A stretch of 64,000 nucleotides of DNA from Pseudomonas bubulae (GTDB lineage Bacteria; Pseudomonadota; Gammaproteobacteria; Pseudomonadales; Pseudomonadaceae), in NCBI RefSeq assembly GCF_900618535.1, contig NZ_UYJA01000001.1, positions 1 through 64,000 on the forward strand, written 5' to 3'. The translations under genes and the position numbers were made by a program. A model generated the notes under the pieces. That model made no database searches, was not told the DNA's origin, and saw only the letters and a program-made list of their open reading frames with translations. Below are positions 7,531-56,998 of the stretch, one piece after another (the stretch's first letter is position 1; the number at the start of each line of letters is the position of its first letter).

Positions 7531-7791
7531 GGCAGTTCTCCTGAAATGGAAGGTTCCTGTCGTGGGGGGTTGCAGGGTTTGTGCCGCAGGCGACGAGCCC
7601 GCAAAACCGGGAGTCAGGCCTTGGCAACTGACTGCTGAGCAACAGTTAACAATCAGGTTGTACGCAAATCGCACAGCAATGAGCACCAAGAATCCTTGCG
7701 CGGGCAAGCAGGCTCGTACTCGCAAGGCAGGGGCATGTCCGGCACGGCCTGTGCAATAGCGCTTTCAAAAGCCTTGCCGTGGAGTAATTGA

Positions 7792-12456: not shown

Positions 12457-12509
12457 CGACCTTCAGCGGCGACCACCCGGTTGCTGCACTTGACACGCAG
12501 GAGACGAAC

Positions 12510-40632: not shown

Positions 40633-40708
<76 letters not shown>

Positions 40709-40750
40709 AACATGGCCCAGTGAATTCAATCGGATTCGCAAGGGCAGAAC

Positions 40751-40774
40751 AAAGGACCTTCGGGTCCTTTTTTC
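40751..40774 (+). terminator. Rho-independent terminator after tRNA-Gly
   Basis: AAAGGACC (40751-40758) pairs with GGTCCTTT (40763-40770) around the stable TTCG tetraloop and continues into TTT. Confidence 0.9.
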
Positions 40775-41246
40775 GTTTCTGGCGTTTTATTCGGGGATGC
40801 TGAATCGCTCTTCTGAAGCCGCGGGCTGAAAATGATGTGCGCCCGACACAGCGTATTGATCTATTAAATGCCCAACCGTTTGCTATTCCCTGGCCTGTTT
40901 GATTGAGACGTTGAATATGGGTTTATTTAAAGTTCGCAGCTCTTTCAAGAAAAGCGCACTTGCCCCGCCAGCGACCCACTTCACTCAAGTCCGGCGCCAT
41001 CAGCTCCCGGACAGCAGATTGCGATTTCATGTTTAGTGCATCATGTTTAATGATCTTTAGCGCTTTAATATGTTAGCGAAATCAATCAGTTGATCAGCTC
41101 TGCCCATCAGCGGGTATTCGCCCGCTGAATAACGGCGCGCTCTTGTTGTATTGTCCTACAAGGCAATTGATTTCTATATAACAGGCTCTGGCAACGGATC
41201 AGGAATATTGGTAGTTTGCGCCCCGTTGATCACTGGACCTCTAATA
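40775..41246. other. Intergenic region upstream of the FadL-like gene; no gene seen
   Basis: About 470 bases between the tRNA terminator and the porin start. No convincing ORF or RNA gene is visible. CATGTTTAGTG and CATGTTTAATG occur as an imperfect direct repeat near 41030-41053, possibly a regulator site. An in-frame extension of the porin reading frame back to 41151 has no ribosome-binding site and would destroy the signal peptide. Confidence 0.6.
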
Positions 41247-42518
41247 ATGAAAAAACTATTCTTCAAGACCACCCTCGGTCTTGCCGTTGCACTTGCGTCG
41301 TCTCAGCTACTTGCCAGCGGTCTTGCAATCAATGAACAAAGTATCAGCGGTATGGGCACCGGTTTCGCCGGTCGATCGTCCTCCGCGGATGATGCCAGTA
41401 CCGTTTACGGCAACCCTGCCGGCATGGCGCGCCTGAAACAGGAGCAGGTGAGTGCAGGTGCTGCCTTGCTCGTGGCGAAAACCGATATCAGCCATACCCG
41501 CAGTACCTTTGGCGGCAAGGAAGACGGCGATATGGTGCCGTTGACTGCGGTGCCAATGGGTTATTACGTCAAGCCGATTGATGAACACTGGGCTTTCGGT
41601 GTCGGTTTCTATGTGCCGTTTGGTTTGATTACGGACTATGGCAGTGGTTTCGCCGGCCGCTACTTCGCCAATAAAAGCAAGATTCAAGTCATGACGTTCC
41701 AGCCTACGGTCAGCTATGCCTTCAATGACAAGGTCTCGATCGGGTTTGGTCCGACCATCAACCGCATTGACGGTGAACTGACTTCACAAGTGCCAAATGC
41801 CCTTACCCCGGGCAGTAACGACGGCAAGGTGAAGATCAGCGGCGATGACACGGCCATCGGTTTCAACGCCGGTATCCTGGTACAGGCCACTGACAGCACC
41901 CGTGTGGGCCTGACGTATCACTCCAAGGTCAGTTACAACCTCAAGGGCACTACCAAGGTCACTGGCGGTACCTTCAGCCTGCTGGGCCTCAGCGGCCAGA
42001 GCTACGATGCCAAGCTGGACCTGGACACGCCGGAGTCCGTGGACTTCTCGGTCACTCACCAGCTCAATGATGACTGGACTCTGTATGCGGGGAGCACCTG
42101 GACCCGCTGGAGCCGCCTCAAGGACATTACCGCTCAGAACAGTGATGTCAGCCCGCGTCTTGGCGGCTCGTTGAGCACCATTACCGAGGAGCAGAACTGG
42201 CACGACACCTGGGCCCACGCCATTGGCGTCGCGTATCAGTTGAATCCGCAATGGGTGTTGCGCACGGGCTTGTCAGTCGATGAGTCGCCGACCAACAACA
42301 GCAACCGTTCGCCGCGTATCCCCACCGGTGACCGTACCGCCATCAGCTTCGGCGCTGGCTGGACGCCGGTGAGTAACATGACGATCGACCTGGCGTACTC
42401 CTACCTGTGGGAAGACAGTACCAAGGTCAACGACAGTTCGGCTTCCAAGGGCGCGTACAGCTCTACCTACAAAAACAGCGCGAGCGGTTTTGGTACTTCG
42501 ATCACCTATCGTTTCTGA
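41247..42518 (+). CDS. FadL/OmpP1-family outer membrane transporter
   Basis: 423 residues with a signal peptide (MKKLFFKTTLGLAVALASSQLLA, cleavage near residue 23) and the FadL hallmark GLAINEQSISGMGTGFAG followed by ASTVYGNPAGMA. The rest is a beta-rich barrel ending in ITYRF, with a C-terminal phenylalanine as in outer membrane proteins. The family moves long-chain fatty acids and other hydrophobic molecules across the outer membrane. It stands alone before cdiA; a supply role for the acyl-CoA clusters in this window is possible. Confidence 0.92.
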   Translation: MKKLFFKTTLGLAVALASSQLLASGLAINEQSISGMGTGFAGRSSSADDASTVYGNPAGMARLKQEQVSAGAALLVAKTDISHTRSTFGGKEDGDMVPLTAVPMGYYVKPIDEHWAFGVGFYVPFGLITDYGSGFAGRYFANKSKIQVMTFQPTVSYAFNDKVSIGFGPTINRIDGELTSQVPNALTPGSNDGKVKISGDDTAIGFNAGILVQATDSTRVGLTYHSKVSYNLKGTTKVTGGTFSLLGLSGQSYDAKLDLDTPESVDFSVTHQLNDDWTLYAGSTWTRWSRLKDITAQNSDVSPRLGGSLSTITEEQNWHDTWAHAIGVAYQLNPQWVLRTGLSVDESPTNNSNRSPRIPTGDRTAISFGAGWTPVSNMTIDLAYSYLWEDSTKVNDSSASKGAYSSTYKNSASGFGTSITYRF

Positions 42519-42830
42519 TCTGCGGGTTTACGCAATATCACTGCAGTGATCTGAAGCAGAGTAGGGCCAGATATGTTTCGCATTTATTGCGGCGCATATC
42601 TGGCTCAAACCCTAGGGCGTGCTACGACAGATCAAATTTATGGCAGTGACAGTCAGTTGCTCTGAAGAGACGTTTCGCTATTGATATCGGAAGCGTCCTA
42701 ACTCTTTTCATTCAAACATATCCAAGACTTACCCCACCCGGAGACGCGCCAAGGCTTTTGCCTGCGAATTGTCTCGTTGAAAAGACTTTGCCTCACTCAT
42801 CAAGTTTGGCGAATCACGGATGGAGTAAGC
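42519..42830. other. Intergenic region between FadL-like gene and cdiA with two inverted repeats
   Basis: 312 bases without a gene. A perfect 14-base palindrome ATCACTGCAGTGAT occupies 42537-42550. GCCAGATATG (42566-42575) and CATATCTGGC (42595-42604) form a 10-bp inverted repeat, perhaps a terminator for the porin without a clear T run. The remaining 220 bases should hold the cdiA promoter, which is not evident by eye. Confidence 0.6.
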
Positions 42831-45800
42831 ATGTTTGGATGTTATCTCGGGATGAGGTCATTAATTCCGGTTGTACCGGGCAGCCTGGCCAAGCTGGGTT
42901 TGTTATCCCCAGAAACCGACAGGGATGATCGGCATTCAGCCTTCTTGGCCCGCCAGTCTTCAGCAGCACTCCATGCCCGGGAATCTTTCCTGGGCATGCC
43001 TAAACGTGGCCTGGCCTTTATTTTGGCCAATGCGCTGTTCTGGCAACCACTGCTGGTGCAGGCCGAAGGCATCGTTGTCAGCGGGCCAGGCACCAGCCTG
43101 GGAGCGGCGGGTAATGGCGTTCCGATCGTCAATATTGCTGCACCCAATGGCAGCGGTCTGTCGCATAACCAGTTCAATGACTACAACGTCGGTGCCAATG
43201 GCCTGATCCTCAACAACGGCATTGACCGTACCCAGTCGACCCAACTGGGCGGCATCATCCTAGGCAACCCGAACCTGCAGGGCAACGCCGCCCATATCAT
43301 CCTCAACGAAGTCAACGGCGTCAGTCCCAGCCAGTTGCGCGGTTATACCGAAGTGGCGGGGCAGTCGGCCAAGGTGATCGTGGCCAACCCCTACGGTATT
43401 ACCTGTAATGGCTGCGGTTTTATCAATACTCCCAGTGTCACGCTTAGCACGGGCAAACCCCTGTTTGATAATGGTCGTCTGGATCGTTATCAGGTTGATG
43501 GCGGTACGGTGACCATTGACGGTCAGGGTTTGAACGCCAGTAATATCGATCGCTTCGACATCATCACCCGCTCGGCGAAGATCAACGCCCAGATCAATGC
43601 GCGTCACTTGACGGTGATTGCCGGTCGCAACGACGTCAATGCCCGGACCCTGCACGCCACTGCGCGCGCGGATGACGGCAGCGCCAAGCCGCAGTTGGCA
43701 ATTGACTCCAGCGCCTTGGGCGGAATGTATGCGGGCGCCATCAGGCTGGTGGGTACCGAGGCCGGTGTCGGGGTCAAGCTGGATGGCACGCTGGCGGCCA
43801 GTGGCGGGGATATACAGCTCGATGCCAATGGGCATTTGCGTATGGCTCAAGTCACGGCCAGCAGTGCGATCACAGGCAAGGCTGGAAGTCTCGATGCCCA
43901 AGAGGCGATCTATGCTGGCAGCACACTGGATATGCAGGCTCAAGGCGACCTGAGCAGCCGTAAAAACCTTATCGCACGTGACAGCATCAAGCTCTCCAGC
44001 GGCGCGCAGTTGACCAATCGCGGCATTATCGAGGCCGGGGTCAATGCCGACCATTCCCGCAACAGTCATGGCGATGTGTACATCGACGCAAAAACGCTTG
44101 CGAACACAAACGCCAGCATCATTGCCAGTCGTCACCTGACAGCTAGCGCCCAAATCCTGAGCAATCAGGGTGGCACGCTGAGCGCCAAACAGGCCGCCAG
44201 CATCCGTGCAGACACTCTGGATAACCAGAACAAAGGGCGGATTCTGAGTAGCGCCAGTCTCGACCTCAAAACTGATCGGTTTCTTAACAGCCAAGGTCTG
44301 GTTTCAGCCAGCAGCATCGACGCCCGGATCGGCAGCCTGGACAACCGCACTGGCATGCTCAGCAGTCAGGGTGAGATGCGCCTGGCCGTTGATGGCACAT
44401 TGCATAACTACAGTGGCGTAGTGATAGCCGACGGCAACGCAAGCGTAACTGCAACCCGCCTCGATAACAGCAGCGGCCGGATTTCCGGCAAGCAGAACCT
44501 CAAGGTTCAAGTGCAGGATCTAAACAACCAGCAAGGTCAACTGATCGGCCAAGGTGCCGTCCAACTGAGCAGTAATATCCTGGACAACCGTCATAAAGGC
44601 CTGGTCGGCGGCGCTCAAGGGCTGACGCTTGATGTGGCCGATATCGATAACCGTGAAGGCGAAGTGTCGAGCCAGGCTGGTTTGTCGTTGACGGGTTTTC
44701 GCCTGGACAACACGGGCGGCAGGCTTACCAGCGAAAAACACAGCCGTCTTGAGCTTAGTGCCGGCGTGGCAAACACCTTGGGCCTGATCAGCAGTGACGG
44801 CGGGTTAAGCCTCTCTGCGACTGAGTTGTCCAACCACCTGGGCAGCATTTCCAGCGCAGGCCAACTTGCTATCAGCAGTGGTGGGTTGAACAACGAAAAG
44901 GGTTCGCTGCAGGGCAAGGCCATCACGCTCGACTTGGGTACTGCCACAGGCGATCTCAACAATATGGGCGGCCTGATCACCACAGCAGGCCCTTTGACCC
45001 TCAAGCACCTGCGTGACCTGAACAACCGTGGCGGCGAGATTTCCACTACGCAAACCCTTAGCCTGAGTGTCCGCAACCTTGATAATACGGGCGGCAAGCT
45101 GATCAGCAACAACCTGTTGGTCATCAATGGTGACAACCTGCTCAATCAGGGCGGGCTGATCTCCGGCTGGCAGGGTTTGAATGCCACCGGTACAACGCTC
45201 GACAATCGCAACAGCGGCAAACTGTCCAGCCTTTACGGCAACCTTGATGCCCATCTCAGCTCCAGCCTTCTCAATAGCGGTACAGGTATTCTGGTCAGCC
45301 AAAAAAACCTGACCGTCACAGCGGCCAACCTGGACAACAGCGGTCAGGGCAATATAACCAGTGCTGGCGCCCAAAGCCTTGATGTCAGTGGTTGGCTGAA
45401 CAACGCCGAGGGCGGGGTGATTGACAGTGGTGCGGCTCTCTATCTGAGTGCGCGTGATCTCGACAACAGTGCTGGCAGTATCAAAGGTGCCGCCGCCACA
45501 ACCCTCGACCTGCCTGGCACCTTGACCAACACCCGCGGCAAGCTGTCCAGCGGTGGCCCGCTATTGATCCAGCGGGCGGCGCAGATCGACAACCAGGGCG
45601 GTGAGCTGGTCAGCAGAAGCGTGCTGAGCCTGATGACCGCTGGCCTGGACAACCGCAATCGCGGCACAGTCGCGGCAGATGGCAAGTTGGACATTAGCGT
45701 CAGTGGCCTGGTGCAAAACAGCAATGACGGCCTGATCTACAGCCAGGACGGCGAGCTCAAACTTACCGCTAGCCGCCTGGACAACGCCAAGGGCAAGGTG

Positions 45801-48800
45801 CAAGGCAAGACCGGCTTAGAACTGGACATTACTGAAAATATCGACAATCAGGGTGGCAAACTGATTGCCCAAAACGGTGATTTGGCGATCAAGGCCGCCA
45901 ACCTGGATAACCGTGGTGGTGAGCTTGGCAGCCTCAAGCAAGCCCTCAATGCTCGCGTAGTCGGTGTACTGCGCAACGGTGTGGCAGGGATCATCCAGGG
46001 CCTGCGTCTGAATCTGATCGCGGGCAGTATCGATAACGTCGGCGGGAAAATCTCAGCGCAAGTGGGCGATGCCCTCGTGACCACCGACGCTTTTGACAAT
46101 CGCGACGGCAATCTCTACGTCAAGCGTCTGCTGACAATAACCGGCAACGCCTTCGACAACAGCGGCGAAACAGGTGGGCGTGTGGCAGCAGAGCACGTCA
46201 GCCTCGATCTGAGCAACGCCCTGAATAACCATAAAGGCCTTATCGAAAGCACAGGAACCCTGAGTGTCAGCGCCGCCAGCGTGGATAACCGGACGGGGCA
46301 GTTGCGTACGCTGGGTACCAGCGGCGATACCTTGTTCCAGATTGGCGGGCTGCTGGACAACCGCAACGGCACCCTGGAAAGCGCCAATACTGAGTTGACG
46401 TTACTCGCGGGCAGCTTCCAGAACGCGGGTGGCAAGGTACTGCATTCCGGCAGCGGCACTTTCGCCATTGATCCGTCGATCCTCGACAACGTTGGCGGCA
46501 GTCTGGAGAGTCGAGGTGGCCTGACCCTCAACCAGGACAGCTGGACCAACAGCAGCGTGATTCAGGCCGCGCGCCTGACAGTCAACGTCAACAGCCTCAA
46601 TCAAGTTGCGGGCGGCCAGTTACTGGCATCCAACAGTTTTGTTGGCGCAGGCGGGAACTGGTCCAACAACGGTTTGCTCGCCAGTGACGGCACTCTGAGT
46701 ATCAACCTGGAGGGTACTTATTCGGCCAGTGGTCGGCTGAGCAGCCTCGGATCCCTGGATCTGCGCGCCGCGCAACTGCACTTCAGCGAAACCGCCACCC
46801 TGGTCGGTGGTGACGGCACCCGGGTCACAGTGGCAGGACAGTTGAACAACGCCGGGCGGATGACGTCTGCGACCGACCTCAACCTCATTGCCAATGAGGT
46901 GTCCAACACCGGCACACTGGGGGCTGGCGCGAACCTTATGCTCACTGCCGACACAGCACTCAATCGCGATGGTCTGATTTTCAGCGGCGGTGACATGCAG
47001 CTGCTGACCACCACCTTCACCAATGCCTATGCGACGGTCTATGGCCTGGGCGATGTGCTGATCGCCAAAGATACAGATCACAACCAGGCCGATTTGCTGG
47101 ACAACCGCTCCGGCACGGTGGAAAGCGCGCAGAACCTGAGCATCCGCGCCATGACCGTGAATAACGTGCGGGATGTGCTGGAATACACGGCCCAGGAAAA
47201 AAGCTCGGTGACCATCACTGAGCTCGATTGCAACTTGATACCTGGTGCCGGGTGTGACTTTCGTCGTAAAGGGCGGCGAAACGGCCTGTGGCAAATCGAT
47301 GAAACCGATCGCCTGAACGTTACCCGAAGCACAGCGGCTTCGCTCTTGGGCAGTGGCGCGGACCTCCAGATCCACGCCGGGACGCTCAATAACCACAGCA
47401 GCACCATTGCCGCCACAGGCAACGTGACGGCCACCGCAGAGACCCTTAACAACCTGGGCGTGCAAGGGCAGGAGATCACCACCACCCGCACGTACTGGAA
47501 CTATGTCACACAGATTTTTGCGGCCATCCCGGCGGCTGCCAATTTCAATGCCAAAAACAGCCCCACACCCTCGGCCACCGTTGAGTCTGACCTGAGTTAC
47601 TTTATTGGCCTGCTGGGCGGTGGCAAGCTATCGCACACCACCCGCACCCAAAACATCGACGGGCAGGCCCATGACGCTGTGATCCAAGCCGGGGGCGACG
47701 TCAACCTCAGTGCCGGGCAAAGCCTTAACAACAGCGTGATCCGGCCGTACTACGGTTATGTCGCTGCCGGCCGTACGCCAACCGACACGGGCGCGGGAAG
47801 TGGCTACTCCACACCGATCCACATCAACGCCCAATTGCCAGCGGATGTGGCCCAGCAACAAGTGAACCCGGTAGAGCTGCCCGGCTTCAGCTTGCCTGAG
47901 GGCCAGAACGGCCTGTTTCGCCTGAGCGGGCAGGGCAGCAGCACTGTGTCGGCCGTTCACTCTCCCTCCCTACCGGTCGACCTCTCAGGTGCAGCAGGTT
48001 CTGCAACAGCGATTGACGGCCTGACCATCAACCGTGTTCAGGGCTTGCCTGACACAAACGTTGTAACCAGCCCGCACAAATACCTGATCGAAACCAACCC
48101 GGCTCTGACCCACCTCAAACAATTTATGGGCTCGGACTACCTGCTGGCGAAGTTGGGTTACGACCCGGACCAAAGCCAGAAGCGCCTGGGTGACGGCTTT
48201 TATGAACAGCGCCTGATTCAGCAAGCCCTCACCGCCCGTACTGGCCAGCGTTTTATCGACGGCCGAACCAGCGATGCGGCGACGTTTAAATACCTGATGG
48301 ACAATGCTGTCGCCAGCAAGCAGGCGCTCAACCTCTCGGTGGGTATCACCCTGACAAGCGAACAGATAGCGGCCCTGACCCACGATATCGTCTGGTTGGA
48401 AAGCACCACGATCAACAACCAGCAAGTGCTGGTTCCGGTGTTGTACATGGCCCAGGCGAACAAACGCCTGGCCCCTAATGGCGCATTGATTGCCGGAAAC
48501 AACGTCAACCTGATCACAGGTCAAGACCTCAAAAACGTCGGCACCTTGCGGGCCACAGAAAACCTGTCAGCCAACGCAGGTAACCACCTGATCAACAGCG
48601 GCCTGATCGACGCCGGCAACCGCCTCGACCTGCTGACGGGCAATAACCTGAGCAACAAGGCGGGCGGCATCCTTGCCGGGCGCGATATCAGCCTAACGGC
48701 CAGCAAGGGTGATCTACTCAATGAGCGCACCGTTATCCGTCATAACAGCAGCAACGGCTATCGCAGCGAACGCACCGACTTCATGGACAGCGCCGCTCGC

Positions 48801-51800
48801 ATTGAAGCGGCGAACAACCTGTCTCTGCACGCGGGCCGCGACGTCCACAGTGTTGGTAGCGTAATCAAAAGCGGCGCAGACACCACCATCAAGGCAGGTC
48901 GTGACGTCAACCTTATTGCCACAGAACAACGCAACAGCCAGGTTGCCGGCACACTGTCGCGTGGCGAGAGCGTGACCCAATATGGCTCTGTCATTGAAGC
49001 GGGTCGCGACTTCCAGATTGTTGCCGGGCGGGATATCAGCGCTATCGCCAGCCAGATTGCAGCCACCCGCGACCTGGCCATGGCCGCATCGGGCGACCTG
49101 ACCCTGGCCTCGGCTGCAAACGAGCAGCACAGCGCGCTCAACACCAATAAAGTCAAAACCCGGGACGATCGCGTCAGCCAGGTCTCGAGCGTGGTCAAGG
49201 CCGGTGGCGATGTGACGCTGAGTGCCGGGCAGGATATGGCGGTAATTGGCAGTCGGGTGGAGGCGGGCGGTGAAGCATACCTGGTGGCTGGCGCAAGCCT
49301 TGAGCTCAAGTCCGCAGAGGAACTGGATTACAGCTTCTATAGCAAGAGCAAAAAAAGCTCGTCCGGAAAATCCTTCCGCCTGAACGAAACCGACACCCTC
49401 ACTAACGTTGGCAGTCTGGTCACCTCGGGGGGTAACAGCACCTTGGTGGCGGGTGATGACCTGCTCTTGCAAGTCAGTGCGGTCAATGCAAAGCAAGGTG
49501 CTGCCAAGCTGCTTGCGGGCAACAATATTCAGATCCTCGCCGCCAGTGATTCCAGCAGTGTGCGCCACGAGAACAGTCAAAGTAAAAGCAGTTGGGGTGG
49601 CCTGAACTCGAGCAAGGCCAAGCGTCAGGTCAGTGAAGCCAGCACGACAGCTGTAGGAAGCACTGTCTCGGGTGACACGGTCAATGTGGCTGCCAGGCGA
49701 GACGTAAAAGTCACGGGTTCGGCGCTGGTCAGCACCGATGACCTTACTGTTCAAGCCGGGCGTGACCTGACTGTTGATGCTGCAATCAACACGTTTTCGC
49801 GAACTGAGATGCGCAAGGAGAAAAAGCGCGACCTCACAGGTGTGCTGACCGGGAACAACCTTGGGTTGGACGATATTAGCGGCAACCTGCATCTTTCCAA
49901 CAGTGGCCAAAAGCACAACGGCACTGCACAGGAGAGCACCTTGCAGGGCAGCACCCTGGGCTCCAGCGTCGGTCACGTGATCCTGACTGCGGGTCGTGAG
50001 TTGAAGGTGATAGCCAGTGACTTGGTCAGTACCCAGGACATGGGCCTGAGCGGTTCCAATGTCACCATCGCCGCGGGTACTGAAACCGCGTACCAGACCA
50101 CTCGAGACAGCTCCAGGAGTATGGGCGTGGGGCGGGTAGTGGGTGGCATGGTGGTCGATACGGTCACCAGCATTCGTAACGACGTGCGGGCTTCGCAGCA
50201 GGCTGACGACAGCCGTCTCAAGGCAGTCAAGGGCGCGCAGGCGTTGCTGTCTGCTTACAACGCCGCAGGCAATATGGATGCCAGTGCCGCGAATGTGTCA
50301 GAAGGTAAGCCAGCCAATAGCGGTGGCGCGCTGATAAAAATCGGTACCGAACTGGGCTCCACTAACAAGAAAAGCAGCAGTGAGTACAACGCTGAAACAG
50401 CCAGGCAATCCACCCTCAACAGTGGCGGCAATCTGGCCATTGTGGCAACAGGCAATGCCCCCGACACCCAGGGCGATATTCATGTCATTGGCAGCAGCCT
50501 CAAGGCTAGAGACACCCTGTTGCGGGCAGAGCATGACATCACCCTGGAAAGCGCCCAAGACCGGAAAAGCTGGGACAACCAAAGTAAAAACGACAAAACC
50601 AGTATGGGTGTCAGCTTCAATGTGGGTGAACAAACGGGTTTCACCCTCGACCTTGGCGCACAACTGGCCAAGGGCATGGGTAAAGGGCGGGAAGTCAGCC
50701 AGGTCAACAGCACGTTAGACACTGGACTGCTGGTGCTCAAAAGCGGCCAGGACACTGCGTTGGCCGGTGCTCAAGTGCGGGCGGATGCCATCAAGGCTGA
50801 TATCAGTGGCAATCTGAGCATGGCTTCACGTCAGGATGAAGCCCGCCAGAAGAACAGGCAAACCAGCGCTGGCGTGGGCGGCAGTATTTGTGTGCCCCCG
50901 TTTTGTGTGGGCGCTCCGGTATCCGCTTCGGCCAATATCGCTGGCAGCAAAATGAACAGCGATTATCAGGCTGTGACCGATCAGACGGGCCTGTCTGCGG
51001 GCACAGGTGGTTACGACATCAACGTCGGAAAAACCACCGCGCTTCTAGGCGCCGTGATTGCCAGCGATGCGCCGGCTGACAAAAACCATCTCAGCACTGA
51101 TCGCCTGTTGGTCAGTGACATCAAAAATAAAAGCGCCATAACAAGTCAGGCCGGGAGTTTGAGCTATTCCGGGGCCTTGGCAGGGGGCGGGGTGGATGCC
51201 CGCTCGGTCGCTGGCGGCACGCTGCCGGTGTTTCTCAAGGACTCTGAGAAGAGTAAAACCCAAAGCGCCATCAGTGAAGGCACCATCACCGTGCGCAACG
51301 CCGATGGCGGCAATGACCTGGTGGGGTTGAACCGCGACACCGTGAACGCCAATCAGCATCTGGATCGGCCTGATGAAAAGGCCATGCAAGCACGCATCGA
51401 CCTGATTCAAAGCTCGGCGCAGCTGTCCAGCAGCGTAATTAATAGCGTGGCCAAAGCCAAGGCTGATGCGGCAACCAAACAGGCCAATGAGGCAACTACC
51501 CCAGAGCAACAACAAGCGGCTGCGCTTGCGCTGGATGACGCCAGGAGCTGGCAGGTCGGGGGCGATAAACGGCTGATGGCCAATATTGCATCGGGCCTGA
51601 TCGCGGCGGGCCTGGGAGGGGCAACGGGCAGTACGGCTGTGAGTGTTGTTGCGAACGTATCATCCAGTGAGATTTTTAAAAAAATCGGTGATTTCGCTAC
51701 CGCGCAAAGAGATAAATCTACGGACAGTGCAGTAAAGGCAGCCTGGGATGAAGGCGGTGCAGCTCGTGTCTTGCTGCATGCGTTGGCGGGTGCGGCAATA

Positions 51801-53024
51801 GGTTTGTCCAGCGGCAATGCGCAGGCGGGTGCTCTGGGAGCTGGAGCCTCTGCGGCGTTGATGCCATCGGTGGGTCAGGCGCTGAAAGACAGTGGGCTGT
51901 CTCGTCAGGAACAAGATGCTATAGCTGCATTGATTGCGACAGGCGTTGGAGCCTCTGCGGGGGCTGGAAGTGGGCCCGGCGAGGCTGTGGTGGCAGGTGG
52001 GGCAGGGTTTGGTGTGGAAGCCTTCAATAGGCAGCTGCATAAGCAACAAGAAATTCCGGTTCTGGAGAAAAAGGCCGAAGAGCTTTACAAAACCCTGGGA
52101 GCGCCAAGATCCAGTGCCCTTTGGCTGGATTTGTTGATGATTGCTGCGGGTGGCGCCCTGGATGCTGCTGATGAAGCCCGTTTGAGCGGTTTGGTTGCGC
52201 AATCCACAGGCAATGATCCGCAGTCCCGAAATTTTATCGATGACCTGAATATTGCCAAAGGGATTATTGGGCAACTGGCGGCAGAGAAAATCCCTCTGAA
52301 GTGGGGCGATGGAAGCCAAGTTGTTGCCAATGGCGAGAAAGTCTTCGCGTTCAGAGCAACCGAAAATCAGTTCAATGACTCAACCCTGTTCAATGCGTCA
52401 GTCTTGCATGGTCAAGGCGTGGTGTATGAGCAATGGCGGCAATACGGCCAGGAGCAAACCAGCGCGCATTCGAAAGAAATGGGTGCGTTGTCCAGTACTG
52501 AGTCAGCTATAAAATCGGCTACCCAGCGTTTGTCAGATTTGGCAGGCAAAGGGATTACAACCATAGCGCCCGAGTTTGATGCTGCTATGCTGTTGATGCC
52601 GGCAGGTAAGTGCGCCAAGGTTGTTGTTGAGGCGGTTCTTGCCAAATTGGCGGCTGGTAAGGCTGCTGCGGGTGTTGGTGCAAAAGCAAATGTGGGGTCA
52701 ATTAGTCATATCTCTGGAGTGAATCTTCCTAAAAGTCAGTCTAAGATGATTGCTAATTTTGAAACAGCAGGGTACCCAACAAAACCAGTAGTTTCTCCGA
52801 CCAGCGGAAATGTGGTCGGAACTCAATACATCTTGCCTGATGGTTCGCGAGTTCGGGTGATGCAGGCGGATGGTCGGAGTCCTCGGCGCGCGTCATTCGA
52901 GAACGCTAATGGCGGACCTGTTGACCCTACTACTGGAAATCCGCCGCAGCCCCCGCAAGGTTTATCGAAGGCTGAGCGGAAGCAGTGGATTAGAAAGCGT
53001 ACGCATATTGAGCAAGTGGACTAA
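42831..53024 (+). CDS. cdiA: Contact-dependent growth inhibition toxin CdiA (two-partner-secretion exoprotein)
   Basis: 3397 residues. An extended signal region runs to about residue 78 (hydrophobic LAFILANALFWQPLLVQA). The TPS/haemagglutination domain follows (about 79-205), with ILNEVNGVSPSQLRGYTEVAG and VANPYGITCNGCGFINTP. Then come many filamentous-haemagglutinin repeats of the LDNxxG type (about 330-1350), a mid region with a short cysteine-containing insert (LDCNLIPGAGCDF), a second repeat block (about 1900-2500), a pretoxin region (SICVPPFCVGAPVSASANI), GVEAFNRQLH near residue 3062 in place of a VENN motif, and a variable toxin domain from about residue 3284 (GAKANVGS). GGAG precedes the ATG; an in-frame TTG lies 54 bases upstream. 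GC content falls sharply in the last few hundred bases, the usual sign of a swapped toxin end. Confidence 0.92.
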   Translation: MFGCYLGMRSLIPVVPGSLAKLGLLSPETDRDDRHSAFLARQSSAALHARESFLGMPKRGLAFILANALFWQPLLVQAEGIVVSGPGTSLGAAGNGVPIVNIAAPNGSGLSHNQFNDYNVGANGLILNNGIDRTQSTQLGGIILGNPNLQGNAAHIILNEVNGVSPSQLRGYTEVAGQSAKVIVANPYGITCNGCGFINTPSVTLSTGKPLFDNGRLDRYQVDGGTVTIDGQGLNASNIDRFDIITRSAKINAQINARHLTVIAGRNDVNARTLHATARADDGSAKPQLAIDSSALGGMYAGAIRLVGTEAGVGVKLDGTLAASGGDIQLDANGHLRMAQVTASSAITGKAGSLDAQEAIYAGSTLDMQAQGDLSSRKNLIARDSIKLSSGAQLTNRGIIEAGVNADHSRNSHGDVYIDAKTLANTNASIIASRHLTASAQILSNQGGTLSAKQAASIRADTLDNQNKGRILSSASLDLKTDRFLNSQGLVSASSIDARIGSLDNRTGMLSSQGEMRLAVDGTLHNYSGVVIADGNASVTATRLDNSSGRISGKQNLKVQVQDLNNQQGQLIGQGAVQLSSNILDNRHKGLVGGAQGLTLDVADIDNREGEVSSQAGLSLTGFRLDNTGGRLTSEKHSRLELSAGVANTLGLISSDGGLSLSATELSNHLGSISSAGQLAISSGGLNNEKGSLQGKAITLDLGTATGDLNNMGGLITTAGPLTLKHLRDLNNRGGEISTTQTLSLSVRNLDNTGGKLISNNLLVINGDNLLNQGGLISGWQGLNATGTTLDNRNSGKLSSLYGNLDAHLSSSLLNSGTGILVSQKNLTVTAANLDNSGQGNITSAGAQSLDVSGWLNNAEGGVIDSGAALYLSARDLDNSAGSIKGAAATTLDLPGTLTNTRGKLSSGGPLLIQRAAQIDNQGGELVSRSVLSLMTAGLDNRNRGTVAADGKLDISVSGLVQNSNDGLIYSQDGELKLTASRLDNAKGKVQGKTGLELDITENIDNQGGKLIAQNGDLAIKAANLDNRGGELGSLKQALNARVVGVLRNGVAGIIQGLRLNLIAGSIDNVGGKISAQVGDALVTTDAFDNRDGNLYVKRLLTITGNAFDNSGETGGRVAAEHVSLDLSNALNNHKGLIESTGTLSVSAASVDNRTGQLRTLGTSGDTLFQIGGLLDNRNGTLESANTELTLLAGSFQNAGGKVLHSGSGTFAIDPSILDNVGGSLESRGGLTLNQDSWTNSSVIQAARLTVNVNSLNQVAGGQLLASNSFVGAGGNWSNNGLLASDGTLSINLEGTYSASGRLSSLGSLDLRAAQLHFSETATLVGGDGTRVTVAGQLNNAGRMTSATDLNLIANEVSNTGTLGAGANLMLTADTALNRDGLIFSGGDMQLLTTTFTNAYATVYGLGDVLIAKDTDHNQADLLDNRSGTVESAQNLSIRAMTVNNVRDVLEYTAQEKSSVTITELDCNLIPGAGCDFRRKGRRNGLWQIDETDRLNVTRSTAASLLGSGADLQIHAGTLNNHSSTIAATGNVTATAETLNNLGVQGQEITTTRTYWNYVTQIFAAIPAAANFNAKNSPTPSATVESDLSYFIGLLGGGKLSHTTRTQNIDGQAHDAVIQAGGDVNLSAGQSLNNSVIRPYYGYVAAGRTPTDTGAGSGYSTPIHINAQLPADVAQQQVNPVELPGFSLPEGQNGLFRLSGQGSSTVSAVHSPSLPVDLSGAAGSATAIDGLTINRVQGLPDTNVVTSPHKYLIETNPALTHLKQFMGSDYLLAKLGYDPDQSQKRLGDGFYEQRLIQQALTARTGQRFIDGRTSDAATFKYLMDNAVASKQALNLSVGITLTSEQIAALTHDIVWLESTTINNQQVLVPVLYMAQANKRLAPNGALIAGNNVNLITGQDLKNVGTLRATENLSANAGNHLINSGLIDAGNRLDLLTGNNLSNKAGGILAGRDISLTASKGDLLNERTVIRHNSSNGYRSERTDFMDSAARIEAANNLSLHAGRDVHSVGSVIKSGADTTIKAGRDVNLIATEQRNSQVAGTLSRGESVTQYGSVIEAGRDFQIVAGRDISAIASQIAATRDLAMAASGDLTLASAANEQHSALNTNKVKTRDDRVSQVSSVVKAGGDVTLSAGQDMAVIGSRVEAGGEAYLVAGASLELKSAEELDYSFYSKSKKSSSGKSFRLNETDTLTNVGSLVTSGGNSTLVAGDDLLLQVSAVNAKQGAAKLLAGNNIQILAASDSSSVRHENSQSKSSWGGLNSSKAKRQVSEASTTAVGSTVSGDTVNVAARRDVKVTGSALVSTDDLTVQAGRDLTVDAAINTFSRTEMRKEKKRDLTGVLTGNNLGLDDISGNLHLSNSGQKHNGTAQESTLQGSTLGSSVGHVILTAGRELKVIASDLVSTQDMGLSGSNVTIAAGTETAYQTTRDSSRSMGVGRVVGGMVVDTVTSIRNDVRASQQADDSRLKAVKGAQALLSAYNAAGNMDASAANVSEGKPANSGGALIKIGTELGSTNKKSSSEYNAETARQSTLNSGGNLAIVATGNAPDTQGDIHVIGSSLKARDTLLRAEHDITLESAQDRKSWDNQSKNDKTSMGVSFNVGEQTGFTLDLGAQLAKGMGKGREVSQVNSTLDTGLLVLKSGQDTALAGAQVRADAIKADISGNLSMASRQDEARQKNRQTSAGVGGSICVPPFCVGAPVSASANIAGSKMNSDYQAVTDQTGLSAGTGGYDINVGKTTALLGAVIASDAPADKNHLSTDRLLVSDIKNKSAITSQAGSLSYSGALAGGGVDARSVAGGTLPVFLKDSEKSKTQSAISEGTITVRNADGGNDLVGLNRDTVNANQHLDRPDEKAMQARIDLIQSSAQLSSSVINSVAKAKADAATKQANEATTPEQQQAAALALDDARSWQVGGDKRLMANIASGLIAAGLGGATGSTAVSVVANVSSSEIFKKIGDFATAQRDKSTDSAVKAAWDEGGAARVLLHALAGAAIGLSSGNAQAGALGAGASAALMPSVGQALKDSGLSRQEQDAIAALIATGVGASAGAGSGPGEAVVAGGAGFGVEAFNRQLHKQQEIPVLEKKAEELYKTLGAPRSSALWLDLLMIAAGGALDAADEARLSGLVAQSTGNDPQSRNFIDDLNIAKGIIGQLAAEKIPLKWGDGSQVVANGEKVFAFRATENQFNDSTLFNASVLHGQGVVYEQWRQYGQEQTSAHSKEMGALSSTESAIKSATQRLSDLAGKGITTIAPEFDAAMLLMPAGKCAKVVVEAVLAKLAAGKAAAGVGAKANVGSISHISGVNLPKSQSKMIANFETAGYPTKPVVSPTSGNVVGTQYILPDGSRVRVMQADGRSPRRASFENANGGPVDPTTGNPPQPPQGLSKAERKQWIRKRTHIEQVD

Positions 53025-53027
53025 AAG

Positions 53028-53387
53028 ATGAGTGAATTGTTGCAAGCCGTGGCTCTTTTGTTGCCTATTAAAATTGAAAGAGTATTTTGGGATGGCGATA
53101 CTTTGATGCTTTTTTCGGCGGACTGGAGCTTTCGGACTGAGAGTGCGTGGCGCGTTTCTAAGGGGCGGGAACTGCTTTTCGGTTGTTGGGATGACGACGC
53201 CCTTGACCATGTTTCTGATCTTTTAGGTTTGTCTATTATTGAGGTGGGTTGGCTTATTGATTCTCAGCCAATCGATCCATTTTTCAAATTGTCTGATGGC
53301 CGCATCTTGAATGCATTTTGTTCGTTATCAACTGAGCCTTGGCTGATGGAGTTCTCGGACGGGGCCGTTTATTTAGGTAATACTTAA
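53028..53387 (+). CDS. cdiI: Probable CdiI immunity protein
   Basis: 119 residues, AT-rich, starting 4 bases after the cdiA stop. No family is recognised; it is acidic with several Trp residues (RVFWDGDTLMLFSADWSF, GWLIDSQPIDPFFKLSDG). Position directly after the toxin domain is the main evidence: CDI immunity genes always follow the toxin end and protect against it by direct binding in the cytoplasm. No signal peptide is present, as expected. Confidence 0.8.
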   Translation: MSELLQAVALLLPIKIERVFWDGDTLMLFSADWSFRTESAWRVSKGRELLFGCWDDDALDHVSDLLGLSIIEVGWLIDSQPIDPFFKLSDGRILNAFCSLSTEPWLMEFSDGAVYLGNT

Positions 53388-53404
53388 TGCTATAAGATTT
53401 TTTT

Positions 53405-53572
53405 GGTGCAAAAGGATCGGCAATTGCTCTCCAGAATTTCGGTGGACGCACTAGTAACGTACTGATCGCTACGACGGGTGAACCTATCAACAAAGAAGGC
53501 TTGACTAAAGCTGCTAGAGCGCTAACAAAGCATGCTTGGTGTGGAGGGCATAAAGACGGTGCTGATCAATGA
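53405..53572 (+). pseudogene. Displaced CdiA-CT fragment, N-terminal half
   Basis: An open stretch beginning at the junction sequence GGTGCAAAA reads GAKGSAIALQNFGGRTSNVL, then TTGEPINKEGLTKAARALTKHA, before ending in unrelated residues and TGA. It has no start codon or ribosome-binding site, as expected for a toxin end separated from its cdiA. The GLTKA(A/G)RAL(T/Q)KH segment is recalled from RNase-type polymorphic toxins. The expected C-terminal half is absent here but a matching type occurs at 54756. Confidence 0.7.
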
Positions 53573-53988
53573 GGTGTTGCACGATGTCAGAGTCCGCTCA
53601 TTTTTTATGGTTGGTGATCTGTTTTGTGAGTTCTTGATATTTTTTAAGTTGTGTGATTCAGGCTGGGTCTCATTAACAGTTAGCGAGGGAGTGTCAAAGT
53701 TTTTTAAAGCTGGATTCAGATCTGGAATTGCTGAAGCTGTCTGAGATAAATGATGAGTTTGCGTATCCAATCAAGTCACTAAGTGGGGTCGATAAATACC
53801 CGGGGTTGAAATTATTGCCGGTATATGAGTATAGGATAAGTGATGTAGGCGAAGTCCGTGTTGGCGTTTATTTGGGTTTCGGAGGCTGCGGTCTTAGCGT
53901 GACTGAGTCTGATGAGTGTCTGTCAGTTACAAAAGGTGTGGTTAAATTTTCAGATAGTAAAATTTCACTGCATAAACTAATAGTTTAG
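53532..53988 (+). pseudogene. Frameshifted immunity-like gene
   Basis: Two open frames join at a run of six T (53700-53705). Frame one reads IKTVLINEVLHDVRVRSFF through SLTVSEGVSKF; frame two continues KLDSDLELLKLSEINDEF and ends HKLIV at 53988. Removing one T would give an uninterrupted protein of about 150 residues. Start is tentative (ATG 53532). AT-rich, small and located between two toxin modules, it is best read as a displaced immunity gene with a one-base insertion, or a homopolymer sequencing error. Confidence 0.65.
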
Positions 53989-53990
53989 TT

Positions 53991-54281
53991 GGTGCAAAAC
54001 CCGGTAAGCACGTTGAGGATTTTGGCGGCAACGCGGCTAGCCCAAGAGATCGTAAAATGGTACTCGATAAAATTTATGACGTTGGAGGTAATCCTGAAAA
54101 GGTAATCCCCGGGACTTTTGCTGGGCAAGGTGTAAATGGCGCACGAGGTGATGTGTTTTTCAGAGTTAAGGGTAATGATGTGGTTGTTACCAAGCCTGAT
54201 GGAACGTTCGTTACTATACTGAAGGATGGGGTAGCTCTGAATCCATCTGTACAGAGTGCATTGAAGGAGGGCGTCAGGTAA
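53991..54281 (+). CDS. Displaced CdiA-CT toxin module, apparently intact
   Basis: A 96-residue open stretch starting at GGTGCAAAA: GAKPGKHVEDFGGNAASPRD, then KMVLDKIYDVGGNPEKVIPG and a C-terminal part ending SVQSALKEGVR. No start codon lies at its beginning; an internal ATG exists at 54057. Its stop overlaps the next ATG (TAATG). The arrangement equals an orphan CdiA-CT followed by its immunity gene, as described for CDI loci of other bacteria. The toxin activity is not recognised. Confidence 0.7.
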   Translation, partial: GAKPGKHVEDFGGNAASPRDRKMVLDKIYDVGGNPEKVIPGTFAGQGVNGARGDVFFRVKGNDVVVTKPDGTFVTILKDGVALNPSVQSALKEGVR

Positions 54282-54751
54282 TGAACTCTCCTGAGCTTAT
54301 GATTACCTGGCTGTTAACAGTGCTCGGGAAGAAATTACTGTCAGTAAATGCTCTATTCCATGTTTTCTGTTCCGAGAGGGATTCTGCCCCTCAAGAGGTT
54401 GGCCTTCTATTCGAACAGTCTGAATTTGGGAAGCTCTATGGAGGGCCTGATGGTGCGTCTCTCTGTTTTTCTTTGAGTCCGATTTCAAACTGCGATTTAG
54501 GTGAATACGGTAGGCAAGATATTTTTTGTATCTCTGGTGAGCTTTATTTCTCCGATGTTGTAGGAAGGAGGTTGGTGTCAGCATCACTTGTGCAGTCCTT
54601 AGCAGAAGACATAGTGGTGGGCGTTGCTCTTTCGTTTGATAACGGTTTTTGCCTATCCATTTTAAACTTAGGAGATGAGCTTTTTATCTATGATGAGATC
54701 CCAGAGGAAATAGTGATCAGTGAGGGGCTGAGCCTTATCTCTGTGAGTTGA
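54281..54751 (+). CDS. Orphan CDI immunity-type protein
   Basis: 156 residues, AT-rich and acidic, starting MNSPELMITWLLTVLGKK, translationally overlapped with the toxin module before it. No family is recognised. By position it should protect against the toxin encoded at 53991. GGAGG lies 9-10 bases before the ATG. It is uninterrupted, in contrast to the neighbouring immunity remnants. Confidence 0.65.
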   Translation: MNSPELMITWLLTVLGKKLLSVNALFHVFCSERDSAPQEVGLLFEQSEFGKLYGGPDGASLCFSLSPISNCDLGEYGRQDIFCISGELYFSDVVGRRLVSASLVQSLAEDIVVGVALSFDNGFCLSILNLGDELFIYDEIPEEIVISEGLSLISVS

Positions 54752-54755
54752 TGGG

Positions 54756-54983
54756 GGCAAAGAGGCATGTATCCTTGCTAGCGTCAAAGGCAGTCCTTCC
54801 GAAATCAATGCTCAAGGTCAAAAAATAGCTGATGATATTCTGAGTAATCCCGCGTCGACCGTAACCTACAAAGACTCCGGGAGGTTTGGGAAAGCTATAG
54901 ATGTAGTTGCTCCCGACGGAAGGGGGCTTCGCTACGATGCTAGTGGGGGATTTATTGGTCTGCTGGAACCACCGAAGCCATGA
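54756..54983 (+). pseudogene. Displaced CdiA-CT fragment, C-terminal half
   Basis: An open stretch reads GKEACILASVKGSPSEINAQ, then KIADDILSNPASTVTYKDSG, and ends APDGRGLRYDASGGFIGLLE before PPKP and TGA. INAQGQK...ILSNP...GRFG...APDGRG is remembered as the C-terminal half of RNase-type polymorphic toxins whose N-terminal half resembles the fragment at 53405. A degenerate junction (GGGGGCAAAG) marks its start. The stop overlaps the following ATG. Confidence 0.7.
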
Positions 54984-55231
54984 CACATCTATCCTCTTTG
55001 ATGAGCAGCCCTCCAGATCGAGAAAATTTAGTATTCGAAATCTGGATGGACGCTGATCAACTAGCTGAAGTATCCCACGAGCCTGGAAGATCAGTTGAGA
55101 TAGAAATATAACCGTCTGCTAAAGACGGGACTTGGAGTTTTGAGCTTGAAGAATTTATGTTTCTGTTGAATCAGGCAGTTGAAAAACTTAAAATAGTTAT
55201 AGTTAAGAGGGTGCAAAAGGAATATCTATAG
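54980..55231 (+). pseudogene. Immunity-like gene with premature stop
   Basis: ATG at 54980 overlaps the toxin fragment stop. The frame reads DRENLVFEIWMDADQLAEVS and VEIEI, then TAA at 55109-55111, and continues in the same frame as PSAKDGTWSFELEEFMFLLN and QAVEKLKIV. The downstream part looks coding, so a nonsense change (probably a Tyr codon to TAA) broke an immunity gene of about 75-80 residues. The last dozen codons before TAG at 55229 already belong to the next junction. Confidence 0.7.
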
Positions 55232-55327
55232 CAATCGAGTCAAAAAATTGCCGGTCAAATGGGTAAACGAGGATGGACGGAAAATGCTATCCAGTCTGTA
55301 ATTGAAATCCAGCAAAAACTATTGTGA
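55210..55327 (+). pseudogene. Short CdiA-CT remnant (RGWT-type toxin)
   Basis: GGTGCAAAA recurs at 55210-55218. Further on, the frame from 55232 reads QSSQKIAGQMGKRGWTENAI and QSVIEIQQKLL before TGA at 55327. The QKIAGQM..RGWT segment is remembered from colicin E5-like RNase domains of polymorphic toxins. The junction and this segment are in different frames, and the domain is cut short, so it is a decayed remnant closing the array. Confidence 0.6.
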
Positions 55328-55353: not shown

Positions 55354-56550
55354 TCAGGCAGCTGCTTGAATGATTCCGCCACAGCGTATATTACTCTGCG
55401 GGCTGAAAATCCGCGTCAGTAGCAGCATTGCAACAACCGCCACAACCAGAACCCACCAGGCAGTAACAAAACTCCCCGTGAGTTCGCGAAGCCAACCCGT
55501 CAGCCATGGCGAAACCGCATTGACAAGAAATCCCGCGCCTTGCACGAACCCTGCAAGCTGAGCGGCTTCGCTGGGTTTGCGGCAATGGTCCAGGGTCAGG
55601 ATCAGGCTCAGGGCGAAACAGGCACCCAGGCCAAAACCAATCAAGGCCACCCACACATACGGCGATTCCAGCGGCCACATGACCAGTCCGCTATAGCCCA
55701 GTGCCTGCGCTCCCAGGCTGACCGCCAAGAGCGGGCGCCTGTCCGTGCTGCGGTGGGCCAGCGCAGGCATCACCAGCGCAGCCAGTACCTGAAAAATGGT
55801 CATGAACGCCAGAAGCGAGCCGCTTTGTGCTGCACTCCAGCCCATCTGCAAATAGTAGGCGGGCAACCACGCCACCATGCTCATATAGCCACAGTTGACG
55901 AGGCCGAAGTACAGCGCCAGTAACCACGCGCGCCGGTTGCGCCACGGGCGCATGGCTGGCTCGCCCGCCGTTCGGGCAGCGCTGGCAAAGGGCAATAAGC
56001 CCCACAGCACCAGTGCGACCAGAGCAGGCGCAAGCCAAATCCCCAGTCCGGCCTGCCAATGGCCAAAATGGCCGGCCACCAGCGGGCTGACGAGTGCAGC
56101 CAGGCCGCCGCCGGCCATAAGGGAGGCGGAGTACACCCCTAAAGCCAGCGCAACCCGCTGCGCAAACTGGCGCTTGATCAGCGCCGGAACCAGCACCTGG
56201 ATCAGCGCAACCCCGGCACCGCCCAACAAGGCCGTGGCCATCAGGGTTTCTGCCCGATCGGCAGACAAGCGCCACAGGCAGGCGCCCAGGATCATCGACA
56301 AGCCCAGGGCCACGCCACGGCGCTCACCCAGGCCTGCCTGCAGGCGTACGCCGAGCAAGGCCACCAGACCCATGCAGATCACTGGCAGGCTGGTCAGCCA
56401 GGCACTGCTCTGGAAACTCATGCCCGTGTCATGACGTATCTCAAGCAACAGCGGGCTGATGGAGCTGAGCAGCGGACGCAGGTTAAGCCCCAGCACCACC
56501 AGCAATGCCCAATTGGCGAACACCCGCGCAGGGTGTTTATCCAGGCTCAT
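55354..56550 (-). CDS. MFS transporter, CynX/NimT type
   Basis: 398 residues, about 12 hydrophobic helices. The opening NWALLVVLGLNLRPLLSSISPLLLEI region (Asn/Arg-Pro rich) is typical of the CynX/NimT branch of the major facilitator superfamily. The ATG at 56550 lies inside the end of the upstream deaminase gene (14-base overlap); an in-frame GTG at 56568 is an alternative. The operon (ankyrin protein, deaminase, transporter) suggests uptake or export of a small nitrogen compound. Confidence 0.88.
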   Translation of the reverse strand: MSLDKHPARVFANWALLVVLGLNLRPLLSSISPLLLEIRHDTGMSFQSSAWLTSLPVICMGLVALLGVRLQAGLGERRGVALGLSMILGACLWRLSADRAETLMATALLGGAGVALIQVLVPALIKRQFAQRVALALGVYSASLMAGGGLAALVSPLVAGHFGHWQAGLGIWLAPALVALVLWGLLPFASAARTAGEPAMRPWRNRRAWLLALYFGLVNCGYMSMVAWLPAYYLQMGWSAAQSGSLLAFMTIFQVLAALVMPALAHRSTDRRPLLAVSLGAQALGYSGLVMWPLESPYVWVALIGFGLGACFALSLILTLDHCRKPSEAAQLAGFVQGAGFLVNAVSPWLTGWLRELTGSFVTAWWVLVVAVVAMLLLTRIFSPQSNIRCGGIIQAAA

Positions 56551-56998
56551 GGCAGGCTTTCCAGTCACTGTAGATCTCGACCATGGCCGGTTGGGGTATG
56601 TGTTGTATCGCCAGTGTCTGTTCGCTCAACGGCAGCGCCAGTTGCTGATAAATCGCTGCCGTAGACAGCCCGAAGGGTTCCCCCTGCGGGTTGCTGGCGG
56701 CATACACCACTCGGGTTACGCCACACAGGTGCATGGCACTCAGGCACATGGGGCAAGGCTGGCCACTGGCATAGATCACGCAACCCTCCAGGCGCGGGCC
56801 CAGTTGCTGGCTGGCAGCCCGTATGGCCAAGAGTTCTGCGTGTGCAGTCGGATCCTGGCTGATATGGAGGGTGTTGACGGCCTCAACGATCACCTGGTCG
56901 TCTTTGACCAGTAGCGCAGCAAAAGGCCGGCCACCGCCGGCAACGTTGTTGGCGGCCAGGGCCACGGCGCGTTGCAGGTAAAACTCATCGCTATGCAT
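56537..56998 (-). CDS. Nucleoside/guanine deaminase-like zinc enzyme
   Basis: 153 residues of the cytidine-deaminase-like fold. The zinc motif is visible: DPTAHAELLAIR (His-Ala-Glu) and SGQPCPMCLSAMH (Pro-Cys-x2-Cys). FAALLVKDDQVIVEAVN precedes it. The sequence fits guanine deaminase-type or tRNA-deaminase-related proteins. GGAG lies about 5 bases before the ATG. It deaminates an amino-purine or similar base; the exact substrate is open. Confidence 0.85.
   Translation of the reverse strand: MHSDEFYLQRAVALAANNVAGGGRPFAALLVKDDQVIVEAVNTLHISQDPTAHAELLAIRAASQQLGPRLEGCVIYASGQPCPMCLSAMHLCGVTRVVYAASNPQGEPFGLSTAAIYQQLALPLSEQTLAIQHIPQPAMVEIYSDWKACHEPG

Follow-up and report, generated by a model that had tools for sequence, protein, structure and literature searches.

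By what route polymorphic toxins change their ends is an open problem in bacterial competition, and the question is raised in compact form by a locus of Pseudomonas bubulae. In the stretch of DNA analysed here, called the window (64,000 nucleotides; assembly GCF_900618535.1, contig NZ_UYJA01000001.1, positions 1 to 64,000, forward strand), a cdiA-type gene for contact-dependent growth inhibition (CDI) is followed by a row of small modules, each the whole or the remains of a predicted C-terminal toxin region (CT), most with a predicted immunity gene. One resident and four orphan module traces, all on the plus strand, lie between cdiA and a gene resembling transporters of the major facilitator superfamily (MFS). 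The predicted modules bear at their heads the nine-mer GGTGCAAAA, which codes for GAK and is degenerate in one of them, and new modules probably enter at this junction, the old ones being pushed downstream. We regard the nine-mer as the likely seam of toxin-end swaps because relatives of several of the modules end cdiA genes elsewhere in Pseudomonas. Toxicity and immunity are, for all modules, predictions from sequence. The features needed for the argument are the following (M1 to M5, modules in order; G with a number, genomes compared).

42777..53024, plus strand: TpsA gene of cdiA type, 3415 aa if started at the first TTG, with a two-partner secretion (TPS) domain and hemagglutinin repeats
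51915..52676, plus strand: conserved pretoxin region 5' of the junction, with matches in 51 of 398 genomes of the genus (G344 97%, G244 83%)
52674..52685, plus strand: resident junction GTTGGTGCAAAA, with the nine-mer at 52677-52685 coding for GAK; homology to the G244 cdiA drops here
52677..53024, plus strand: M1, resident CdiA-CT, 115 aa, which ends 15 CdiA protein clusters, the window's own included
53028..53387, plus strand: M1 predicted immunity gene, intact open reading frame (ORF), 119 aa, 84-89% to the G136 and G032 copies
53405..53413, plus strand: junction 2, exact match to GGTGCAAAA
53405..53572, plus strand: M2 orphan CT remnant, 55 codons and a stop, second half gone, first 44 aa 73% to the G099 resident CT
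53532..53988, plus strand: M2 predicted immunity gene, frameshifted, in two out-of-frame pieces (53532-53744 and 53728-53988), each 72-76% to G051 and G287
53991..53999, plus strand: junction 3, exact match to GGTGCAAAA
53991..54281, plus strand: M3 orphan CT, 96 aa, 91.5% to the G244 resident CT at the DNA level, clipped after GAK
54281..54751, plus strand: predicted immunity gene of M3, 156 aa in an intact ORF, with matches, counting its own, in 21 of the 398 genomes and in 49 protein clusters
54754..54762, plus strand: junction 4, degenerate GGGGCAAAG
54774..54983, plus strand: M4 orphan CT remnant, shortened by about 124 nt in its 5' part, 86.6% to the G105 and G135 resident CTs
54980..55111, plus strand: M4 predicted immunity remnant, its ORF ended by an in-frame stop
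55210..55218, plus strand: junction 5, exact match to GGTGCAAAA
55210..55391, plus strand: M5 remnant, probable Colicin E5-like CT, 73% DNA identity to G244 7060-7257

A sequence-only reading had placed the resident junction within 52674-52685, further copies of the nine-mer at 53405, 53991 and 55210, a degenerate one near 54751, and about five module traces in all. The exact copies stand at just these positions, the degenerate one lies precisely at 54754-54762, and there are indeed five traces, each opened by the nine-mer or its degenerate copy; three of the four orphans thus open at the exact junction motif of the resident CT, which M3 shares over the 12 bp of GTTGGTGCAAAA. The array end put at 55327 fell short, as similarity between M5 and G244 continues to about 55391. 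That the exact copies each begin GAK plus a different toxin-like domain stood with a correction. The GAK frame is open at all five junctions (115, 55, 96, 24 and 18 codons, in order), but with G244 as the reference the M3 CT lacks 108 nt (36 codons) right after its nine-mer, and M4 lacks about 124 nt; both are therefore taken as clipped modules. Since M2 to M5 are clipped or decayed, only the immunity ORFs of M1 and M3 are intact; M1 is an intact CT/immunity pair, and M3 a clipped CT with an intact immunity ORF, 5' of whose ATG an AAGGAGG is seen by eye. No immunity gene was seen for M5. Profile searches, which the sequence-only reading had suggested for a comparison with polymorphic toxin families, gave no assignment: no Pfam or NCBIfam model detects any window module. 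An M5 look-alike in G200 matches PF12106 at 3e-30, the likeness between M5 and the G200 protein being judged by eye, and the intact relative of M4 in G105 matches PDB 6d7y_A (E 1.3e-4) over 81 residues.

Could so short a word simply recur by chance in AT-rich remnants? The array is AT-richer than the gene before it (GC 0.39-0.50 vs 0.58 in cdiA), as this explanation would have it, but all counts oppose it. The window holds 7 exact matches against 1.08 expected, a number reached by 0 of 100 shuffles; the three copies outside the array lie at 2685, at 32875 (minus strand) and at 45710 (out of the cdiA frame). Of 3000 sequences simulated by a first-order Markov model to match 52677-55327 in composition, 2928 contained no copy, 72 one and none two or more. 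The whole genome (5,027,139 bases) has GGTGCAAAA 79 times (49 + 30 on the two strands), about once per 64 kb, and the reversed pattern 50 times. Behind 40 resident CT ends from the genomes compared (up to 6.5 kb each, 229,394 nt) the nine-mer occurs 36 times in sense and once in antisense orientation, which answers the worry that it might be equally frequent elsewhere. In the same DNA its variants GGGGCAAAA and GGTCCAAAA occur 10 and 5 times in sense and 2 and 0 times in antisense, and the 29 single-base variants beyond GGTGCAAAA and GGGGCAAAA jointly 54 and 30 times, none more than 7 times. Exact junctions are followed by G in 32 of the 36 orphan cases and in all 17 resident ones. Chance repetition is thus ruled out by the strand counts and by the edge counts given below, and we assign it a practically negligible probability.

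Comparison with other genomes reveals what the word marks. G344, of the same species, carries the same array (99.3% over 4702 columns). G244 has ten modules behind a pretoxin region related to that of the window, with junctions at reverse-complement positions 1378, 2248, 2897, 3545, 4123, 4810, 5442, 6366, 7075 and 7671. Two of these read GGGGCAAAA, and a scan of the stretch beyond shows no more junctions of GGTGCAAAA type. In G244 it is M3 that is resident; the order M3, M4, M5 is kept with other modules interspersed, and M1 and M2 find no match in the G244 stretch L044. Pretoxin homology between window and G244 stops at the junction. Homology blocks of G244 likewise begin or end at or near the nine-mer: 4810-5451 matches G287 3769-4410 at 87.9% from one nine-mer through the end of the next, between unrelated flanks; 5434-6375 matches G023 at 71.7%, beginning 8 nt before one nine-mer and stopping at the next; and 2248-2884, orphan in one genome and resident in the other, matches G341 852-1488 from its nine-mer to 13 nt before the next G244 junction. 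M3 is flanked on both sides by GGTGCAAAA in G244, G068 and G076. Further arrays occur in G287, G023, G051, G363 and others, and in P. karstica the resident junction is exact, as is one orphan junction that lies 408 nt past the cdiA stop. Identical junctions within one array share words with medians of 10-12 bp (seven arrays); the longest ones of G244 and G287 measure 23 and 45 bp, respectively.

These edges were then examined at 46 loci of M1, M3 and M4 that came from protein searches, the nine-mer not being used for selection; G344 and three same-genome duplicates were omitted, and G076 and G044, at first double-counted, are removed in the deduplicated figures. With at most one mismatch, the nine-mer stands at 20 of 26 intact left edges (deduplicated, 18 of 24; background 0.8%) and at 23 of 38 intact right edges (22 of 36; background 1.7%). 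Identity over 30 nt falls from 0.94 inside to 0.29 outside the left edge of M4 (15 pairs, 6 loci) and from 0.85 to 0.33 at its right edge (28 pairs, 8 loci), past which each of the seven compared genomes (G105, G135, G228, G244, G374, G050 and G287) continues with different sequence. At right edges that bear the nine-mer, its offset is constant for a given module: 4 nt for M3 in 9 of 11 cases, with 20-21 nt in the rest, and 20 nt for M1 in 3 of 3. The nine-mer is, therefore, the usual boundary of modules, on both sides, in many Pseudomonas genomes and behind unrelated pretoxins. One module common to G256 1166-1981 and G287 7276-8093 (L045, L055; 92%) behaves otherwise at its 3' side, where homology stops just past a hairpin-like CAATCCTA...TAGGATTG and not at the nine-mer.

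A boundary need not be the site of exchange. The nine-mer might be a passenger of homologous recombination over long tracts, pretoxin on the left and shared orphans on the right, with GGTGCAAAA marking where homology ends since GAK is conserved at the CdiA-CT boundary; this we regard as a serious contender, if somewhat below even. The M4 and GVPS modules, present in both G244 and G287, are possible anchors around a differing middle module; some orphans in G051 and G287 bear pretoxin pieces ending ADVVSGGAK, and G287 has shared tracts of 42-45 nt around internal junctions. Among the 15 M1 protein clusters the residues abutting M1 are GAK in 10 and GPK in 2, the other three having GAT, GAQ or neither. 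On the other hand, outside the junction the neighbours of M1 and M4 show chance-level identity over 30 nt (mean 0.29-0.31), and orphans severed from cdiA still bear the nine-mer. Synonymous choice is skewed as well: in-frame GAK near the CT start uses the codons of GGTGCAAAA in 17 of 30 cases, compared with 2 of 23 in ORFs of the genome itself (p 2.7e-4, for loci that are not fully independent).

A second possibility, which we consider rather doubtful, is homology-facilitated illegitimate recombination, in which pairing within the pretoxin places the left end and the right one is joined randomly, regular junctions being inherited from donor arrays. An illegitimate right end has been proposed for CDI loci of Acinetobacter (PMC6336857) and for type VI secretion system (T6SS) arrays of Vibrio cholerae (PMC5361080). 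The clipping of M3 and M4 would fit such a scheme. Moreover, the M3 nine-mer of the window pairs in the alignment with a GGTAAAAAG inside the G244 copy, which would result from the joining of an incoming end within the old CT or from a slipped deletion; the 36-codon gap is the trace of either an imprecise right end or a later slipped deletion. However, a random right end predicts variable offsets, and where the nine-mer follows M4, 6 nt separate it from the final immunity codon at 8 of 9 loci, the window having 8 nt.

The sequence-only reading had asked whether displaced domains occur as resident ends elsewhere, and relatives of M1, M3, M4 and the first half of M2 (G099) do end CdiA proteins, M5 lying outside this result. 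M3 is the resident CT of G244, and M4 is resident behind two different pretoxins (G105 and G135) and orphan in G228, G244, G374, G050, G044, G009 and G287. The clusters that end in the M1 CT include proteins with and without DUF637, among others from P. aeruginosa, Metapseudomonas and Microbulbifer, one cluster being a 100% match from Pseudomonas sp. FSL R10-0056. In ten upstream regions Pfam finds DUF637 four times (once with a sub-threshold PT-VENN), nothing five times and an unrelated sub-threshold match once. In G363 the M1 CT is a frameshifted orphan. Altogether, clustering of the 108 modules from 41 loci gives 72 groups, of which 13 span two or more genomes; resident and orphan members occur together in 8 of the 13, and in 4 of the remaining 8 once the five window-module clusters are left aside. 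Between window and G244, synonymous divergence (dS) is 0.86 in the pretoxin, 0.245 in the M3 CT and 0.162 in the M3 immunity gene; M3 was therefore exchanged after the scaffolds diverged, and modules move separately. Resident and orphan states are thus reciprocal, and modules move independently. The ratio of nonsynonymous to synonymous divergence (dN/dS; both lineages) is 0.32 for M3 immunity, a constraint that fits, and does not prove, retention for protection; as it is also low in the M3 CT remnant (0.18), constraint before displacement could explain both.

How, then, would a toxin end be swapped? In the scheme that we favour, an incoming piece of a donor array would join the recipient via the shared 9-12 bp junction or, alternatively, via longer homology in the flanks wherever the pretoxins or adjacent orphans are alike. 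This would cut the old CT off from cdiA and leave it to decay, and intact predicted orphan immunity genes, such as that of M3, might still protect the cell from relatives using the old toxin. RecA pairing usually needs longer homology than most shared junction words offer, and, since the shared word is short and mostly below this need, microhomology joining or slippage would be the likelier route. As for the proposal of the sequence-only reading that the nine-mer is the recombination point of toxin ends, its role as a boundary at which blocks start and stop is borne out, and recombination at the microhomology itself is what we infer.

Several observations weigh against entry at the junction. 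Even with one mismatch allowed, 6 of the 24 intact edges on the left and 14 of the 36 on the right lack the nine-mer (deduplicated). Longer homology is available in G051 and G287, because orphans there bear pretoxin pieces before GAK. Module order varies, a GTPAW module following M4 in G244 and preceding it in G050. In the genome as a whole, enrichment of the 14-mer AGTTGGTGCAAAAG is only about twofold (63 matches vs 33 for the reversed control, by hand count), and a permutation test of array-wise junction variants was borderline. No near-identical pair of strains before and after an exchange was found among the genomes compared, and insertion at the head is, for this reason, not distinguished from loss at the head. 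Finally, a complete cdiBAI locus had to be rejected for the window, as no cdiB lies beside its cdiA.

Compact units invite comparison with integron cassettes, and a site-specific recombinase might recognise the junction: of 47 orphan junctions, 40 have an ORF of 60 aa or more that ends at most 400 nt upstream, in 19 of them within -1 to 5 nt. These 19 compact junctions, however, leave no room for an attC-like hairpin after the stop codon (attC sites were not searched for), and none of the 18 PF00589 matches of the genome lies in the window, the nearest being a tyrosine integrase at G000:C1:67736-68215, 12 kb past the array; we deem a recombinase improbable. More boldly, and only tentatively, GGTGCAAAA with its variants GGGGCAAAA and GGTCCAAAA may be a genus-wide DNA exchange seam of 9-12 bp, selected at the DNA level, by which antibacterial toxin/immunity cassettes whose ends are fixed pass from one CdiA scaffold to an unrelated one and pile up in integron-like stacks without an integrase. 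The short junction across classes, together with the mostly fixed edges, makes the exchange step directly testable, and the junction word can serve as a simple finder for repertoires of orphan immunity genes in Pseudomonas.

The window array is the Pseudomonas counterpart of the orphan cdiA-CT/cdiI arrays of E. coli and Yersinia, which lie behind cdiA and are joined at VENN, the junction motif being usually encoded (Poole 2011, PMC3150448); in that account homology between EC869 and 254 spans one VENN to the next, and EC869 has eleven orphan pairs. The window likewise has tandem CT/immunity fragments in one orientation behind cdiA. It differs in that its junction is a 9-12 bp GAK-coding word, without PT-VENN, and is the same behind several pretoxin types. 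For Pseudomonas, Mercy 2016 (PMC4725963) distinguishes CDI classes I-V with the motifs WVHN, VENN, LYVT, DAMV and NEALV/NEVLA, and shares with our case a CdiA with variable CT, a small downstream immunity ORF and orphan modules. These are said there to be limited to P. aeruginosa, whereas ours occur in the window's species and P. karstica, and GAK has no occurrence in its available text. Orphan arrays were already known in the genus, since a 2022 review (PMC9086364) mentions as many as 15 orphan immunity genes for P. aeruginosa. It also lists the toxin of the P. aeruginosa PABL017 CdiA tip (PDB 6D7Y) against tRNAs; the G105 relative of M4 is weakly similar to this tip, and the activity of M4, whose window copy is broken, is only predicted. 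Type-II CDI orphans of Acinetobacter (De Gregorio 2019, PMC6336857), for which illegitimate joining is hypothesised, resemble ours in stepwise displacement and a predominance of immunity genes, whereas here most edges lie at a repeated word. In T6SS immunity arrays of V. cholerae (Kirchberger 2017, PMC5361080) sequential displacement leaves immunity genes as well; the secretion system is another, and no repeated junction word is described in the available text. An E. coli CDI surveillance paper (PMC4927057) belongs to the related literature. No title or visible abstract in the Pseudomonas CDI literature covered, from which subscription journals are mostly absent, describes this junction. What is new is a 9-12 bp junction common to pretoxin classes, mostly fixed right edges, and arrays beyond P. 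aeruginosa.

Turning to the scaffold, the window CdiA combines a TPS domain, hemagglutinin repeats and a variable CT (PF05860 at 1.2e-52 and PF13332 at 4.5e-60 in the Pfam domain search). The same search found neither PT-VENN (PF04829) nor DUF637 at E 0.01, and E. coli-type (VENN) CDI was rejected for this locus, as no PT-VENN domain precedes the CT. ShlB-type matches in the genome occur only at C3:593026 and C5:43896, whereas in G244 cdiB is directly adjacent to cdiA. The window cdi locus underwent rearrangement relative to the G244 order. Over 40633-42777 the window has tRNA-Gly, a FadL-like gene (by eye) and then cdiA, with no cdiB upstream; G244 has a match to the tRNA stretch, cdiB, cdiA and the array, with the FadL-like gene downstream. 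A second cdiB-cdiA pair lies on contig C3 of the window's genome (G000; L218:8280-10103 and onward); its cdiA has a different end, and no GAK array was seen behind it in L229. Because the C3 cdiB is 83% identical to the cdiA-adjacent cdiB of G244, it might serve the window CdiA in trans. As far as searched, no plasmid or phage carries the array, and 3' of it the MFS transporter-like gene lies on the opposite strand (55354-56568, by eye).

A few observations from other genomes may be added. In G051 (L059) and G287 (L055) the pretoxin and the array tail are about 98-99% alike, and the modules between them differ. In P. karstica (L009, about 11700-12500) the orphan module contains, or is directly followed by, a frame that resembles REP-associated transposases (repetitive extragenic palindrome), as judged by eye and without a search. 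In G315 (L111:921, 1791 and 2744), all three junctions are GGTCCAAAA, coding for GPK, around the same M3 module.

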